Shown here piece after piece: positions 7,107 to 42,667 of a stretch of DNA of 64,000 nucleotides. The stretch covers positions 1 to 64,000 of the forward strand of contig JAHFBP010000003.1 of the NCBI GenBank assembly GCA_023249975.1. Reading direction: 5' to 3'. The number at the start of each line of letters is the position of its first letter. Position 1 is the stretch's first letter. Both the position numbers and the translations under genes were made by a program. Source of the stretch: a bacterium (GTDB lineage Bacteria > Babelota > Babeliae > Babelales > GCA-2401785). The notes beneath the pieces were generated by a model. The model was not told the DNA's origin. It saw only the letters and a program-made list of their open reading frames with translations, and did not search any database.

Positions 7107-7463
7107 TTAAATACTGACTCCGCTCTCACGCAAACCTTCAGCAAGAGCCTTAACGCGACCATGATATAAATGTCTACCACGATCAAAACAGAGTGCACCA
7201 AGCCCCTGCTCAGTTATTTTTTTACCAAGCGCAACACCCAAGGCATGTGCTTGATCTACTTTTTTGCTATCTTTTTCGAAATCTAATGTAAGCGTAGACA
7301 TCGATACGAGTGTTTCGTGCTTCAAGTCGTCTATTACTTGAACTGACATGTTCTTACTGCTCCGAAAAACACTAATACGTGGCAATCCACTCTTTTTTAG
7401 ACGATTTCGCACACGACATTCACGTCGTTGTACGCGTTTTTGTAATCGTCGATTAATACTCAC
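7107..7463 (-). CDS. rplR: 50S ribosomal protein L18
   Basis: L18 binds 5S rRNA together with L5. I choose the GTG at 7461-7463 because a GAGAGGG ribosome-binding site lies seven bases upstream and it gives the family-typical length of 118 residues. A TTG seven codons earlier would lengthen it. Core features are NRLKKSGLPRISVFRSSKNM and the C-terminal CFDRGRHLYHGRVKALAEGLRE. Confidence 0.95.
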   Translation of the reverse strand: MSINRRLQKRVQRRECRVRNRLKKSGLPRISVFRSSKNMSVQVIDDLKHETLVSMSTLTLDFEKDSKKVDQAHALGVALGKKITEQGLGALCFDRGRHLYHGRVKALAEGLRESGVSI

Positions 7464-7499
7464 AACAAAACCCTCTCTTAACAAGCATAAGATCTAGCC

Positions 7500-8039
7500 T
7501 TATGCCTTAGTCTTTCCAGCTTTACGAATAATTCTTTGACCTTCAAACATGATTCCAGTTCCCTTATAAGGCTCTGGTGGACGCAATCTACGAACTGCAT
7601 CACATGTATTGCTTAAAAGTTCTTTATTTGCTGCTCGGAAAAGAAGGTCTTGGCCTTTTTTCTCTTCAACAACAACACTCACGCCTTCAGGCAAATCAAA
7701 TTCTATTTTGTGACTAAATCCCAAAGAAAAATTGATTTTCCTTCCAACAAGCTGACCTTTTAAACCAAGTCCTACGATCTTAACTCTTTGCTCAAAGCCG
7801 GTTTCAACACCCTTAACCTTGTTAGCAATAAGTGCACGATGAAGACCCCAAGCTCTTTTAAGCTCTGCGGTGTTTTCATCAACCGTAATTTTCAAACACT
7901 TGTCTTCTTGAACGATGTGAACACCTTCAGGAAGAATATGTGTTTCTGTATGCTTCAAACCTTTGATCGTCAACATTTTGCCGTCTATTGTGACATTTGC
8001 TGATTCAACAGGGATTGGCTTTCTACCGATTTTTGACAT
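7500..8039 (-). CDS. rplF: 50S ribosomal protein L6
   Basis: L6 lies near the factor-binding region of the large subunit. The 179-residue product starts MSKIGRKPIPV and carries the two repeated alpha/beta domains, ending with the conserved RRLRPPEPYKGTGI segment and a basic tail. It lies between rpsH and rplR. Confidence 0.97.
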   Translation of the reverse strand: MSKIGRKPIPVESANVTIDGKMLTIKGLKHTETHILPEGVHIVQEDKCLKITVDENTAELKRAWGLHRALIANKVKGVETGFEQRVKIVGLGLKGQLVGRKINFSLGFSHKIEFDLPEGVSVVVEEKKGQDLLFRAANKELLSNTCDAVRRLRPPEPYKGTGIMFEGQRIIRKAGKTKA

Positions 8040-8048
8040 GGTGCTCCC

Positions 8049-8429
8049 CTACCAAACGCGACACAATACTTCACCACCGACTGAATGCTCACGAGCTTTA
8101 CGATCGGTTATAACACCAATATTGGTTGTTATAATAGTAATACCCAATCCGCCTACAAAAGGCTTCAATTGTTGAGCACCTTCATAACGACGGCAACCAG
8201 GTTTACTTACACGAGTAATTTCATGAATAACTGACTCGCCGCTTACATATTTAAGACGGACAACAAGTCGATCATCTTCTTTCATAAAGTCTTCAATGTA
8301 ACCTTCGTCTTTTAAGACTTGAGCTATTTGAACCTTAAATTTAGAATATGGGGTCGACATTGAACGTTTGTATATGCTGATCGCATTACGAATCGTCGTC
8401 AAAAAATTACCAACTATATCTATCGACAT
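8049..8429 (-). CDS. rpsH: 30S ribosomal protein S8
   Basis: S8 is a central-domain 16S rRNA-binding protein and in many bacteria represses the spc operon. The 126-residue product contains FLTTIRNAISIYK, a VSKPGCRRY segment and the C-terminal GLGITIITTNIGVITDRKAREHSVGGEVLCRVW, all characteristic. Confidence 0.97.
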   Translation of the reverse strand: MSIDIVGNFLTTIRNAISIYKRSMSTPYSKFKVQIAQVLKDEGYIEDFMKEDDRLVVRLKYVSGESVIHEITRVSKPGCRRYEGAQQLKPFVGGLGITIITTNIGVITDRKAREHSVGGEVLCRVW

Positions 8430-8442
8430 TATTTACTCCGCT

Positions 8443-8628
8443 CTACCAACTTGCTTTTTTGACGCCTGGTAAGATTCCCATCACCGCAGTATTTCTGAAG
8501 CAAATCCTACACAGATTAAACATGCGCATAAACCCACGCGGTCTTCCACATTCTTTGCAGCGATTACGATGCTGCGTCATAAATTTTGGAGTTTTGTTTG
8601 CTTTTACAACAAGCGCTTTGCGTGCCAT
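8443..8628 (-). CDS. rpsN: 30S ribosomal protein S14, zinc-binding type
   Basis: Short (61-residue) S14 of the small-subunit head. Four cysteines at residues 24, 27, 40 and 43 (CKEC and CRIC) make the zinc knuckle of the type Z form. The C-terminus [11 protein letters not shown] is the standard S14 ending. It lies between rplE and rpsH. Confidence 0.97.
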
Positions 8629-8630
8629 AT

Positions 8631-9194
8631 TTACCCCTGCACTCCACCTTGAGAATTACTATTGCGAAATGGCATTTTGAATTTTTTAAGTAACGCAAAA
8701 GCCGCTTTATCATCACTTGAAGATGTATGAATGGTGATATTCAATCCACGAGATGAATCAACTTTATCATAATCAACTTCTGGAAAAATCATCCAATCTT
8801 TGATACCAAGATTATAATTTCCTGTGCCATCAAATTTTGTAGGCACGCCCTGAAAATCCCGAACTCCAGGTAGTGCGATATTAATTAATTTATCAAGAAA
8901 ATGATACATAGCACGGCGACGCAATGTCACCTTAACACCAATATCAACACCTTCACGCAACTTAAAACCTGCAATCGAATTACGCGCTGCAGTTTTGATT
9001 GCTTTTTGACCAGCAATAAGCTCTATTGTTTTCTTAATTCCATCAAGAACCTTACTGTCACGCGAAGCTTCTTTTACCCCAATATTAATAACAATTTTTT
9101 CAATACGTGGGACTTGCATAATATTAGCAAGACTAAGCTCTGTTTGGAGCTCACCCTTTATGTTTTTATACATTTCCTCTAAGCGCGACATCAT
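8631..9194 (-). CDS. rplE: 50S ribosomal protein L5
   Basis: L5 binds 5S rRNA and contacts P-site tRNA. The 187-residue product has the [28 protein letters not shown] and [15 protein letters not shown] segments typical of L5. An AGGAT ribosome-binding site lies upstream of the start. The end lies two bases before the rpsN start. Confidence 0.97.
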
Positions 9195-9206
9195 AACGTA
9201 TCCTGT

Positions 9207-9521
9207 TTAAAATTGAGCCCCTGTGCGGTGGCTTGCCCTAATCTTCTTCCCATCTTCACTCACAACTGTGCGAATACGGCAGCCTTTTTTTGTATCTGGA
9301 CATGCCGGCATTACTTTACACAATGGCAAAAATGACTCTTCCTTGGTTATCATACCTTTTTCATTTTTTGAACGAGGTTTGATATGTCGTGTCACAATTG
9401 AGATTCCACGAACCTTAACCAAGCCATGTTTCTGATCAAGTTCAATAACAGTTCCCTGTTTGCCCTTATCGCGACCAGAAATAATGACTACAAGGTCATC
9501 TTTTCTTATACGATTCAACAT
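9207..9521 (-). CDS. rplX: 50S ribosomal protein L24
   Basis: Assembly-initiating large-subunit protein of 104 residues. The KOW motif is seen in DDLVVIISGRDKGKQGTVIE near the N-terminus, followed by the conserved HIKPRSKNEKGMITKEE segment. Position between rplN and rplE is standard. Confidence 0.97.
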   Translation of the reverse strand: MLNRIRKDDLVVIISGRDKGKQGTVIELDQKHGLVKVRGISIVTRHIKPRSKNEKGMITKEESFLPLCKVMPACPDTKKGCRIRTVVSEDGKKIRASHRTGAQF

Positions 9522-9540
9522 TTTATTTTTCTACCTCTAA

Positions 9541-9909
9541 CTATATAACTTCAGGTGCGAGCGACAAAATTTTGGTAAAGCCTTCGGCCCTGAGTTCACG
9601 AGCTATAGGTCCAAAAATACGCGTACCAATTGGCTGCTTATCTTTGTTAACAATAACTGCTGCATTCTCATCAAATCTAATGTAGCTACCGTCATTACGA
9701 CGAGCCTCTTTGCGAGTTCTGACTACAACGGCAAAGTGAACTTCACCCTTTTTGACAGTTCCGCCAGGAATGGCTTTTTTAACTGTAACCTTCACAAGGT
9801 CACCTAGATATGCAAAACGCTTACCTGTGCTTCCAACTATGTGGATAACCTTGAGTCCCTTGGCTCCGGAGTTGTCTGCAACAATAAGTTTAGTTTCCTT
9901 TTGTATCAT
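9541..9909 (-). CDS. rplN: 50S ribosomal protein L14
   Basis: L14 forms part of the subunit interface. The 122-residue product starts [20 protein letters not shown] and has the [20 protein letters not shown] segment and the usual [12 protein letters not shown] ending. Length and position between rpsQ and rplX are standard. Confidence 0.98.
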
Positions 9910-9921
9910 AGTCGCTTACCC

Positions 9922-10206
9922 TCAAACAGACGCGCTGTTATTAACACTCAAAAGCGTCATGTGCTTGTCACGAGAAAGAGGACGGCACTCAGCGATTTTT
10001 ACAAAATCACCACATCGTGCAGAATTATTCTCATCGTGAACTTTGTACTTCTTTGTTCGTCGAATGATCTTGCCAAATTCCGGATGTCGGAATGTATTGG
10101 AGACTTCTACGATAATTGTCTTATCCATTTTATCAGAAACAACGCGACCTTCAAAGCTTCGCTCTGTTTTTTTAATGTTTTTTTCAATTTCTGCCGAATA
10201 GGCCAT
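9922..10206 (-). CDS. rpsQ: 30S ribosomal protein S17
   Basis: S17 is an OB-fold protein that binds 16S rRNA early in assembly. I use the ATG at 10204-10206, which has a GGAG site upstream, rather than the preceding GTG codon. The core reads GRVVSDKMDKTIIVEVSNTF and GDFVKIAECRPLSRDKHM. The first dozen residues are a lineage-specific extension. Confidence 0.95.
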   Translation of the reverse strand: MAYSAEIEKNIKKTERSFEGRVVSDKMDKTIIVEVSNTFRHPEFGKIIRRTKKYKVHDENNSARCGDFVKIAECRPLSRDKHMTLLSVNNSASV

Positions 10207-10239
10207 CACTCATCTCCACTTATCATGATCGTTAAAACT

Positions 10240-10455
10240 TCATGCTGCTTTTGTTACCAAGGCAGATGAAGCCGCTTTTTGGTTCAAAAAGGTCAAACCA
10301 CGCGCAATATTTTTACGAACTTTTGAAATTTGAGAGTAATCTTTAACCTGCCCACTAGGCAAACTGATCTTCAACTCAAAAAGCTCTCTGCGCATGTCTG
10401 CTATGGTCTTTTCTAACTCAGCTACGCTCAAATTCATTAATTCTTGTTTTTTCAT
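10240..10455 (-). CDS. rpmC: 50S ribosomal protein L29
   Basis: Small helical large-subunit protein near the exit tunnel, 71 residues. The ELMNLSVAELEKTIADMRRE helix and the ISKVRKNIARGLTFLNQK helix match the family. It lies between rplP and rpsQ as expected. Confidence 0.95.
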   Translation of the reverse strand: MKKQELMNLSVAELEKTIADMRRELFELKISLPSGQVKDYSQISKVRKNIARGLTFLNQKAASSALVTKAA

Positions 10456-10469
10456 CTTTTCACTTCACG

Positions 10470-10904
10470 TCAGCTAGGATACTGCACAGAGTCTTCTGCG
10501 CCTTTTTCAACAAATCGTGTTTTCATAGGAAGTTTATATTGGGCTCCCTTTAAAACTTCTTTTGCTGTTGCAAGATCAACGCCGCTTACTTCTACAAGTA
10601 CGCGTCCACGTTTAACTACAGACACCCAGAACTCAGGCCCACCTTTTCCTCCACCCATACGGACTTCGGCAGGTTTTTTCGAAATAGGCTTATCAGGGAA
10701 TACGCGGAAAAAATATTCTCCGACCTTCTTTAATTTACGGCTCAATGAAATACGAACAGACTCAATTTGACGAGACGTCAACCAGCCTGGTTCCACTGCA
10801 ATTAATCCATAATTTCCAAAGAAGACCGTGCGCGCACCTTTTGACCAGCCACGTCGGTTACCTCGATGAACCTTACGGTATTTTGTCTTTTTTGGCATCA
10901 ACAT
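10470..10904 (-). CDS. rplP: 50S ribosomal protein L16
   Basis: L16 helps organise the A-site tRNA-binding region of the large subunit. The 144-residue product starts MLMPKKTKYRKVHRGNRRG and contains the PAEVRMGGGKGGPEFWV segment that reaches toward the peptidyl-transferase centre. Order rpsC-rplP-rpmC is standard. Confidence 0.98.
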   Translation of the reverse strand: MLMPKKTKYRKVHRGNRRGWSKGARTVFFGNYGLIAVEPGWLTSRQIESVRISLSRKLKKVGEYFFRVFPDKPISKKPAEVRMGGGKGGPEFWVSVVKRGRVLVEVSGVDLATAKEVLKGAQYKLPMKTRFVEKGAEDSVQYPS

Positions 10905-37775: not shown

Positions 37776-38228
37776 ATGGTCAACAAATATTCACTACGCG
37801 CAGTAAAATTAGCCGTAATTTTGATGTTGCTGCCGATACTTACTCTGCAATTGAGCCCCCAAGAAGTCCCACAACAAGACGAATTTAATATTGAACGGGA
37901 AGAATCTTTATCAGAGGCCTCAATGACCGACGAAGCTGATGCTCAATTAGCCGCCGATAATGAAGCAATTAAAAGCGCAATTGAACAAATCCTTATAGAA
38001 GCTAAAGAGCGTGAAGAAAAAGCTTTGAAAAAACTAGTCATCATGGAAGAAGAACACACTCAACACATCGCAGAAATCAATGAAGAACTTGCAATACTAT
38101 ACAGAACAGACCCTACAAAAGACATGAGCCGTTTTAGGGCCTATCAAAAACTTGTAAACCTAATCCGAAGGTTCTTTGGCACGTCCCCGATAAAACAATC
38201 TCTGTCGAAGAACGAACCCAAGACATAA
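37776..38228 (+). CDS. Exported or anchored coiled-coil protein, unknown (second of a tandem pair)
   Basis: A 150-residue protein with an N-terminal hydrophobic leader (MVNKYSLRAVKLAVILMLL), an acidic stretch, and a Glu/Lys/Ala-rich coiled coil from about residue 60 to 115, ending in a basic tail. The leader resembles that of the preceding gene (M-x-x-KYS). The last 31 codons overlap the 3' end of dapF on the other strand. An AAGGGG site lies upstream of the ATG. Confidence 0.55.
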   Translation: MVNKYSLRAVKLAVILMLLPILTLQLSPQEVPQQDEFNIEREESLSEASMTDEADAQLAADNEAIKSAIEQILIEAKEREEKALKKLVIMEEEHTQHIAEINEELAILYRTDPTKDMSRFRAYQKLVNLIRRFFGTSPIKQSLSKNEPKT

Positions 38229-39899: not shown

Positions 39900-40022
39900 A
39901 GTTGAAATACCTCTGCCGCATGTAAATTTTCCTTTTCGTTGAGAATTGTTATTATATCGCCGCTTATTGATTTTTTAAAGATTCGGTCAGATTTCAGAGG
40001 TGTAATAATTAAAGGAAATCCA

Positions 40023-41327
40023 TTGAGAAAACAAAAAGTATCAATTCGCCCATTTTTGATATGTGCGCTCATAGCCTCAATCGCCATTGCAAGTTTTTCC
40101 TTTTTCAACATTACCCCCGTTGGAAAACAAATTTTACGCAAACCGGTTGTTGTCGTTATTCATGGAACTTTTGCGCGAAATTCACGTTGGATGCAATCAG
40201 AAATTGATATTGCACGAAGTCGATTTGAAGAAGCCAAAAAGAATTTTCATGCCAATCAATCTCCGCGTACAGACAAAATCTTACGAGACACCCAAGAAAA
40301 ACTCAACGCTCTACTTTTTATGGAAGAAGAATCTGAAGTCAAATCTTCTTCTGAACATGTCGAGTCATCTGAAGAGGAAATTGCACTACCGCCACTCCTT
40401 TTGCACGAAACTTCGACAAAAAAACCTCGGATTACGTTTTTTGATGTAGTGAAACAAGCATTTTCCCGCGCAGATGTTGTCAGACATGACTGGTCAGGAC
40501 AATTGAGCAGTAACGCCAGAATTGTTGCTGGAATTACTCTTGCCGCACGACTGGTAGCTGAATTTTCCAAACGCCCCATTATTTTAATAGGCCACAGTCA
40601 TGGCGGAAATATTATTAAAATCGCTATTAATATTTTGGCTCTTTTAAATCAAAAAATAGCACTTGAAGAAGCAGGTCCCCTTGCTAAAAATACCCAAAAC
40701 AAGCTCGACAGACAAAAACTTGCCCTCATTCCTGAAGTATCACACAACCAATTGGTTGCCATTCGTTACCACATAACACAAGCATTGAATCAACAAGAAA
40801 ACAAGGAGCTATTTGATGCAGCAATGCTCCTTAAAAAGGAATTTGCTAAACGATCAGCAAAAGAAAACGCAACCCCTTTGCACGTTCACGCCGCCATCAC
40901 TCTCGGAACCCCCATGGCAGAAGGCTTCAGCTTTAATACAACACCCGAAAATGGCACCATCACTCATGCAATCACAATTTCATCAAAAGGAGACTCGGTT
41001 CAAGCGGCCGCAGGTTATCGCAAAGCACTTGGATACGGACCTGTCACCAACCTGTTTCTTTCTCTACAAGACCCAAATGGCATAATTTACAGCCCAGGAC
41101 ATCGAGAAACTCACCATCCACGAGTAGGGTTGTTTATCAAAGCCCTGCTAACTGCTCTTGATAAACAATTGGTATTACCACCTGTTTGCAATGTCACAAT
41201 TTTTAATAATCAGACCGCCATCATCAAAGAATATATGACAAACAACTCCTTAATCAAACGTGCGCGCGAAGAAGGAGTTCCGATCAAAGATCTTAAAATT
41301 AAGGAAACTGTTTTAAAGTTTTTTTAA
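40023..41327 (+). CDS. Membrane-anchored or exported serine hydrolase (alpha/beta-hydrolase type)
   Basis: I start at a TTG with an AAAGGA site upstream; the product then begins with a basic segment and a hydrophobic helix (FLICALIASIAIASFSFF) that would anchor or export it. The core has VVVIHGTFARNSRWM (oxyanion loop) and the nucleophile motif LIGHSHGGNIIKIA, as in lipases and esterases. Between them is a highly acidic Ser/Glu insertion. Near the end SKGDSVQ and HRETHHP align with a paralogue at 41324, marking likely acid and histidine of a Ser-Asp-His triad. Substrate unknown; an upstream TTG would lengthen it 28 residues. Confidence 0.7.
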   Translation: MRKQKVSIRPFLICALIASIAIASFSFFNITPVGKQILRKPVVVVIHGTFARNSRWMQSEIDIARSRFEEAKKNFHANQSPRTDKILRDTQEKLNALLFMEEESEVKSSSEHVESSEEEIALPPLLLHETSTKKPRITFFDVVKQAFSRADVVRHDWSGQLSSNARIVAGITLAARLVAEFSKRPIILIGHSHGGNIIKIAINILALLNQKIALEEAGPLAKNTQNKLDRQKLALIPEVSHNQLVAIRYHITQALNQQENKELFDAAMLLKKEFAKRSAKENATPLHVHAAITLGTPMAEGFSFNTTPENGTITHAITISSKGDSVQAAAGYRKALGYGPVTNLFLSLQDPNGIIYSPGHRETHHPRVGLFIKALLTALDKQLVLPPVCNVTIFNNQTAIIKEYMTNNSLIKRAREEGVPIKDLKIKETVLKFF

Positions 41328-42568
41328 AGTGACTTCATAATCACTGGCTTTGAGCCATCCTCAAAAAACAATATTGAAAGGTTTTTATACTCTTTAAAGT
41401 CTGTTGGATCCACCTTAAACTCTTTAACAATAATGTCCGGCAAACGAAAAAGCCAAGACCCAATAAAGGGTGAATGCAATTCTGTGTGACTCGGCAAACA
41501 AAATGAACCTTTATTGTTTCGAACCGAAACTTGTAAGTTTAAAAGCCGTTCCGCAGGGGTATATGTGCGACTATACAAACCCAAAACTGGCTGAATTATG
41601 TCACCCTCTGAATAAAGCGAAAAAAGTCCTTTAATAACGGCCATGTTTGGTTTATAGCTTTTTTCACACACAGGGGTTCCCAGTTGCGCCACATAATTAA
41701 TAGTGCGCTGTGATCCGGTATTAACCGTCATAAGAGTTCCTGCTTTGGTATCTTCACTGAATGCAACTCGTTTTTTGAGCGATTCAAACCAAATTGATTC
41801 GTAGACCTGAATAATACGAGCCCCAATGCGGGCTGCATATTCATCACGCGATTCATGTTGATTAGCAAAATACACACTCTTCACGCCTGCAATTTTTTGA
41901 CAACCCCTACATTGCTCAATATGAGAATCAATCTCTGTTTTGGTTTCAAAGCCAGAATCATTATGCTTGGAGTCCCATTCTTGCAAGGCATCGAGTACAA
42001 ATTGACCAGCTTGCTGACTGATATAGTCACGAACAATTTTTTCTTTGCTGACTTCATCTTCCAGGGCAAGTAAATCTTCTGACTCAATGATCTCTTGCAC
42101 CACAATAACGTCTTTTGAGGTTTTATCATCACTAACAGCTTTAGTTGCTTTCTCTCGCAATGCAAGTGCCATGCGGCTGACGGGATTATACATAAACTGA
42201 CTGGTCAAAGCAGCAATTGCCCCGCCATGACTGTGAGCAAACATTGTAATTGATTCATTATCCGGATAACTCAAACACAACATAGCCAAGTTTTCTGCTG
42301 CCTCAATGCGCGACACATGGTCATTGTCACCATCCCACACAAATGAAACGACGCTCTCAACTCGCTGTTTATTACCAGATTCCTTTGATTTTTCCGCAGC
42401 ATACGCCCAAAGAGATCGGTTAACGGCTTTAAAAAAATCACCTCCTGGCTTATGCCAATTCTCATCGGTCGCAAATGTTCCATGGATAATGATCACCACA
42501 GGAGCAACCTTGGCAGAAAAACAACCAATCAATCCTGCAACCATCAGTGTTTTTTTTATGAATTGCAT
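41324..42568 (-). CDS. Exported serine hydrolase (alpha/beta-hydrolase type), paralogue of the convergent gene
   Basis: A 414-residue protein with a cleavable-looking signal (MQFIKKTLMVAGLIGCFSAK) followed at once by PVVIIIHGTFATDENW and, near residue 110, MFAHSHGGAIAAL, the serine nucleophile motif. SEGDIIQPVLGLYS and SHTELHSPFIGSWL near residues 325-375 align with the last part of the plus-strand gene. The two genes converge and overlap by four bases (TTAA), each using it for its stop codon. A lipase- or esterase-like enzyme acting in the periplasm or outside the cell is likely; the substrate is unknown. Confidence 0.72.
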   Translation of the reverse strand: MQFIKKTLMVAGLIGCFSAKVAPVVIIIHGTFATDENWHKPGGDFFKAVNRSLWAYAAEKSKESGNKQRVESVVSFVWDGDNDHVSRIEAAENLAMLCLSYPDNESITMFAHSHGGAIAALTSQFMYNPVSRMALALREKATKAVSDDKTSKDVIVVQEIIESEDLLALEDEVSKEKIVRDYISQQAGQFVLDALQEWDSKHNDSGFETKTEIDSHIEQCRGCQKIAGVKSVYFANQHESRDEYAARIGARIIQVYESIWFESLKKRVAFSEDTKAGTLMTVNTGSQRTINYVAQLGTPVCEKSYKPNMAVIKGLFSLYSEGDIIQPVLGLYSRTYTPAERLLNLQVSVRNNKGSFCLPSHTELHSPFIGSWLFRLPDIIVKEFKVDPTDFKEYKNLSILFFEDGSKPVIMKSL

Positions 42569-42667
42569 TCAAGTTCCTTCACTCAATATCCATTTCTCCC
42601 GCGCATTTGAGAGTATCAATTGGGAGACCAGATATTCAAGCAAACTTCAAACAACAAGCGGAGAGGT

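Follow-up and report, generated by a model that had tools for sequence, protein, structure and literature searches.

Thioesterases and acyltransferases are among the members of the alpha/beta-hydrolase superfamily, and several Pfam families of this fold resemble the two proteins described here, P1 and P2, which are encoded side by side in a genome of the Dependentiae. Like P1 and P2, the families Abhydrolase_6, Lipase_3, PGAP1 and DUF676 have a GxSxG nucleophile elbow, an oxyanion-type HG motif that follows the first strand, L(G/A)TP downstream of the nucleophile helix, and Asp and His in canonical order. Unlike them, the Dependentiae members have in common the motif set HGT[FWY]-WSG-HSHGG-LGTP-YSxxD-GH. 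Among the closest solved folds to the P2 and P1 models are the Cryptococcus cutinase-like protein 2czq and the B. subtilis lipase 1i6w, respectively, although identity is only 17% and 11% and P1 and P2 carry large insertions, helical in structure, beyond the nucleophile helix. The Tle3 phospholipase effectors of type VI secretion (PF24322) show a weak profile likeness to 7 of 40 family members (best E 6e-5), but P2 scores below the Tle3 threshold and both proteins have hydrophobic N-terminal export segments of their own. Neither P1 nor P2 reached any curated Pfam or NCBIfam threshold, the gathering thresholds of PGAP1, DUF676, Lipase_3, Tle3 and Abhydrolase_6 included; the best Pfam scores were 21.1 bits for P1 (Abhydrolase_6, threshold 26.3) and 13.3 bits for P2 (Tle3, threshold 27). 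We consider it likely, with a probability of about 0.7, that P1 and P2 belong to a single family of exported alpha/beta-hydrolases in the Dependentiae and diverged long ago, that gene movement brought them tail to tail, and that they probably cleave ester or lipid bonds outside the cytoplasm.

The window, a 64,000-nucleotide stretch of contig JAHFBP010000003.1, belongs to a Dependentiae (TM6/Babelota) genome of approximately 1.09 Mb in 20 contigs, and its RpoA is 56-71% identical to RpoA of 53 records, the majority of which bear Dependentiae, TM6 or Babeliales in their titles. The start of P1 is best placed at the TTG at 40023, 6 nt downstream of AAAGGA (40011-40016); a second in-frame TTG upstream, at 39939, is a less likely start. 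P2 begins with an ATG at 42568, preceded by GAAGGAAC. The two frames run tail to tail and end in a common TTAA, exactly at the coordinates given by the first-pass annotation, with the P1 stop (TAA) at 41325-41327 and the P2 stop read from 41326-41324 on the minus strand (Table 1). A terminator scan found no terminator-like hairpin at this junction. Four base pairs is the modal overlap length in prokaryotes, and just four tetramers, TTAA among them, are able to end two convergent genes (PMC2174442). We therefore rejected the overlap as a special feature, given this common geometry and the presence of another convergent overlap in the window, and it is no evidence of common origin or of coupling for P1 and P2. 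The other convergent pair overlaps by 95 bp (38134-38228), where a small exported-looking ORF (37776-38228, plus strand) lies over the 3′ end of dapF.

Table 1. Features of the P1/P2 locus, in window coordinates
Feature	Position	Strand	Remarks
P1 ORF	40023..41327	+	434 aa, alpha/beta serine hydrolase (predicted); N-terminal signal peptide or membrane anchor
Acidic Ser/Glu insertion of P1	40323..40424	+	approximately residues 101-134, between HGTF and WSG elements
P1 Ser192 codon (AGT), predicted nucleophile	40596..40598	+	right after strand 186-191, before helix 193-216
P1 Asp324 codon, predicted triad acid	40992..40994	+	after strand 313-320
P1 His360 codon, predicted triad base	41100..41102	+	just ahead of helix 361-364
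Shared TTAA, both stop codons	41324..41327	.	4-bp convergent overlap of P1 and P2
P2 ORF	41324..42568	-	414 aa, alpha/beta serine hydrolase (predicted); N-terminal signal sequence
P2 His361 codon, predicted triad base	41486..41488	-	just ahead of helix 362-365
P2 Asp323 codon, predicted triad acid	41600..41602	-	after strand 312-319
P2 Ser113 codon (AGT), predicted nucleophile	42230..42232	-	right after strand 107-112

The paralogy of P1 and P2, first proposed from a handful of motifs, is borne out by pairwise alignment. BLASTP aligned a 98-residue segment at 29% identity (E 8e-7) and a 230-residue segment at 22% identity (E 2e-5), which are colinear and together cover both the N-terminal and the C-terminal part of the fold, and phmmer gave an E-value of 5e-10. 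The observed score of 37.4 bits compares with a maximum of 25.0 bits in 200 shuffles of P1. The two proteins are thus homologous, and their likeness is above chance and reaches well past the motifs, the absence of which had been named as one outcome that would refute the proposal. The motifs occur in identical order, with HGTF at residue 47 of P1 and 29 of P2, HSHGG at 191 and 112, LGTP at 294 and 296, and GD at 323 and 322. The acidic Ser/Glu stretch noticed earlier in P1 is real; it follows the first strand and precedes the WSG strand, and may form a surface loop. A C-terminal H.E.H.P segment is likewise common to both proteins, as had been noted, but the invariant His is its first H (PGH in P1, PSH in P2) and not the later H of HHP or HSP.

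Structure prediction, Foldseek and profile searches agree on a common alpha/beta-hydrolase fold, as the first-pass annotation had anticipated. AlphaFold models built with the family alignment reached a mean pLDDT of 80 for P1 and 78 for P2 (pTM 0.74 and 0.73), with confidence high around the predicted triad and low mainly in the insertions. Both models have a core of alternating beta strands and helices, the alpha/beta-hydrolase plan, in which the Ser sits between a core strand and a helix, the Asp follows a later strand, and the His lies past the next strand and before a helix. Foldseek returned mostly cutinases, esterases (including feruloyl esterases) and lipases: P2 matched a cutinase-like protein with probability 1.00, and P1 matched a cutinase with probability 0.96 and the B. 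subtilis lipase with a TM-score of 0.55 by target. The E-values, at best approximately 3e-3 for P2 and 3e-2 for P1, are modest and the query TM-scores low, both attributable to the insertions in P1 and P2. Against viral proteins the matches were generic and lipase- or phospholipase-like only, headed by a putative lecithin:cholesterol acyltransferase. A single-sequence search of the PDB gave no match for P2 and chance matches for P1; the family profile picked up alpha/beta hydrolases and lipases in the PDB, with the match lying at the nucleophile motif (E 2e-7). Nearly all Pfam families hit by members of the family were alpha/beta hydrolases.

An alignment of 40 relatives contains exactly seven invariant columns, G30, W78, S113, P299, S320, D323 and H361 in P2 and G48, W157, S192, P297, S321, D324 and H360 in P1, three of which are the expected Ser, Asp and His in that order. 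The elbow G/A-x-S-x-G is present as GHSHG or AHSHG, with the Ser placed where the strand ends and the helix begins, and HGT, WSG, GHSHGG, L(G/A)TP, YSxGD and GH recur in a wider set of 75 sequences, except in degenerate copies of one relative, G033. This conservation supports the catalytic assignment, and the proposed triad is supported in both proteins, its residues being colinear, invariant and in canonical order in the predicted models. In the mechanism that we propose, the nucleophile would be the Ser of HSHGG; the His that follows the last core strands would activate it together with the Asp of YSxGD, and the HGT element would help to form the oxyanion hole. By analogy, the large and variable helical insertions may serve as a cap that sets the substrate.

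Both proteins also look exported, in keeping with the earlier reading, on the strength of hydropathy. Each has a positively charged and hydrophobic N-terminal segment of the Sec type, with hydropathy maxima near the N-terminus of 2.6 for P1 and 2.2 for P2 and no further strong segment in either; in P2 this peak coincides in part with the first core strand. A lipobox, LIGC, is possible though not certain at residues 13-16 of P2. Each protein would probably cleave an ester-type bond, most likely in a lipid, outside the cytoplasm, either in the envelope or in host space.

How the pair arose is a separate matter. The first-pass annotation traced the pair to a single gene duplicated on the spot in inverted orientation, one copy then gaining the acidic insertion, and the side-by-side, opposite orientation of two paralogues is what such an event would leave. 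The long lone branch of P1, among the longest in two trees (1.85-2.09 changes per column), could also mean a fast-evolving copy, and AU tests did not reject P1 and P2 as sisters (p 0.105 and 0.251), so an old duplication can be accommodated. Against this origin, the inverted DNA match between the genes is only 14 bp exact, at HSHGG, with the other arms at chance level. In both trees the partner of P2 is not P1 but a gene of G034, which represents a different genus of the same family (support 98/89 and 94/83). The best matches of P1 are in G056, G059 and G033, ahead of P2, and nine other relatives match P1 better than P2 does. A search for the same convergent pair elsewhere found none among the matches listed, where adjacent members lie on the same strand. 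We consequently regard in-place inverted duplication as quite unlikely, and propose instead that gene movement brought P1 and P2 into a slot between a cysteine-synthase-like gene (cysM) and a DUF4911 gene and left them tail to tail. In two family relatives, G032 and G033, this slot holds a second gltX (glutamyl-tRNA synthetase) and no detectable member of the hydrolase family, indicating that the pair reached or arose there in the lineage of the window, or was lost in both relatives. The G033 slot additionally carries small exported-looking ORFs. The window slot spans 39900-42667, and compared with those relatives (L179, L180) this genome and G034 show only one gltX.

On its own, the pair is an unremarkable case of paralogy for a compact genome, and the family to which it points is of greater interest. 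Before any profile was built, phmmer linked P1 to a protein of G056 (1.9e-16) and P2 to one of G033 (5e-46). A search with P2 found matches in 46 of 101 genomes of the phylum, and a profile of 40 members found them in 100 of the 101; P2 and P1, which are both in the profile seed, score 4e-79 and 3e-52. A contig scan with P2 as query found no relatives, and the family alignment varies too much to be of use in pattern searching. Genomes differ strongly in copy number, in insertions and in sequence. In other Dependentiae, such as G041, G091, G080 and G034, two to four adjacent copies form head-to-tail arrays on one strand, whereas P1 and P2 lie tail to tail; three or four members per locus are seen in the same-strand arrays of G041, G091, G093 and G080 (L104-L107). 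Expansion of these genes is seen in several Dependentiae families. At one locus of G033 (contig C93, 7172-11525), the paralogues on either side of an intact P2-like gene (9349-10599) have lost the catalytic Ser, with GNGFG, GVGIG or LRFGG in place of GHSHG; this is possibly an array of active enzyme and pseudoenzymes. The genome studied here encodes a third, more distant member (contig C11, 5622-7112; E 4e-19) directly upstream of a BamA-like gene (7266-9761), a neighbourhood also found in G023. No description of this hydrolase family turned up in literature searches. Its fold and chemistry are known, and the family appears to be undescribed in the papers searched and, for P1 and P2, in curated libraries.

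Dependentiae are parasites of protists, and the presence of exported hydrolases, missed in the case of P1 and P2 by curated models, in almost every sequenced genome of the phylum makes the family a concrete candidate for lipid acquisition or remodelling. Its occurrence in nearly all genomes speaks for a core role, whereas the differences in copy number, the arrays and the divergence point to adaptation to hosts or substrates. A rival reading, rated at somewhat below even odds, is that P1 and P2 serve the envelope of the bacterium itself, in lipid or outer-membrane maintenance, and not action on the host. Such a role would fit the near-universal distribution, as expected of housekeeping, and the placement of the third copy beside a bamA-like gene, but no envelope pathway genes directly adjoin P1 and P2, and the variability and tandem arrays described above fit substrate or host adaptation better. 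Action of P1 and P2 on host membranes is possible. In a broader version, the Dependentiae would use on their protist hosts a family of exported lipid hydrolases that is present across the phylum and has expanded repeatedly, in some genomes with Ser-less paralogues next to intact copies, and P1 and P2 would act jointly on different host lipids; this is a speculative and rather unlikely extension. The chemistry itself could differ from ester hydrolysis within the predicted fold, and acyl transfer or cleavage of thioesters or amides would suit those Foldseek matches that are thioesterases and the acyltransferase at the head of the viral matches; the best matches are cutinases, lipases and esterases, and we hold this alternative to be unlikely. 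It is less probable still that P1 is a degenerate, non-catalytic paralogue with a structural or regulatory role. Its long branch and the Ser-less neighbours of an intact copy in G033 would be in line with decay, but HGTF, WSG, GHSHGGN, LGTP, SKGD and PGH are all intact in an open frame of 434 codons. Our preferred reading keeps both P1 and P2 as probable exported ester or lipid hydrolases.

The predicted export of hydrolases has a wider setting in the phylum: 44% of the proteins of one Dependentiae isolate are predicted to carry export signals, many of them of unknown function (PMC6561590). Outside the Dependentiae, a control search of 145 genomes from the phylum of a Parcubacteria record gave one strong match of 93 bits, with the rest at 17-26 bits, and the family is therefore perhaps not strictly confined to the Dependentiae. 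The strong match is a stretch of a 2024-aa frame (G174, contig C4, 61891-62304). A further record, PBME01000018.1, is titled 'Epsilonproteobacteria bacterium SP22'; it has a Dependentiae-like RpoA and the same family matches as G031, and is probably mislabelled.
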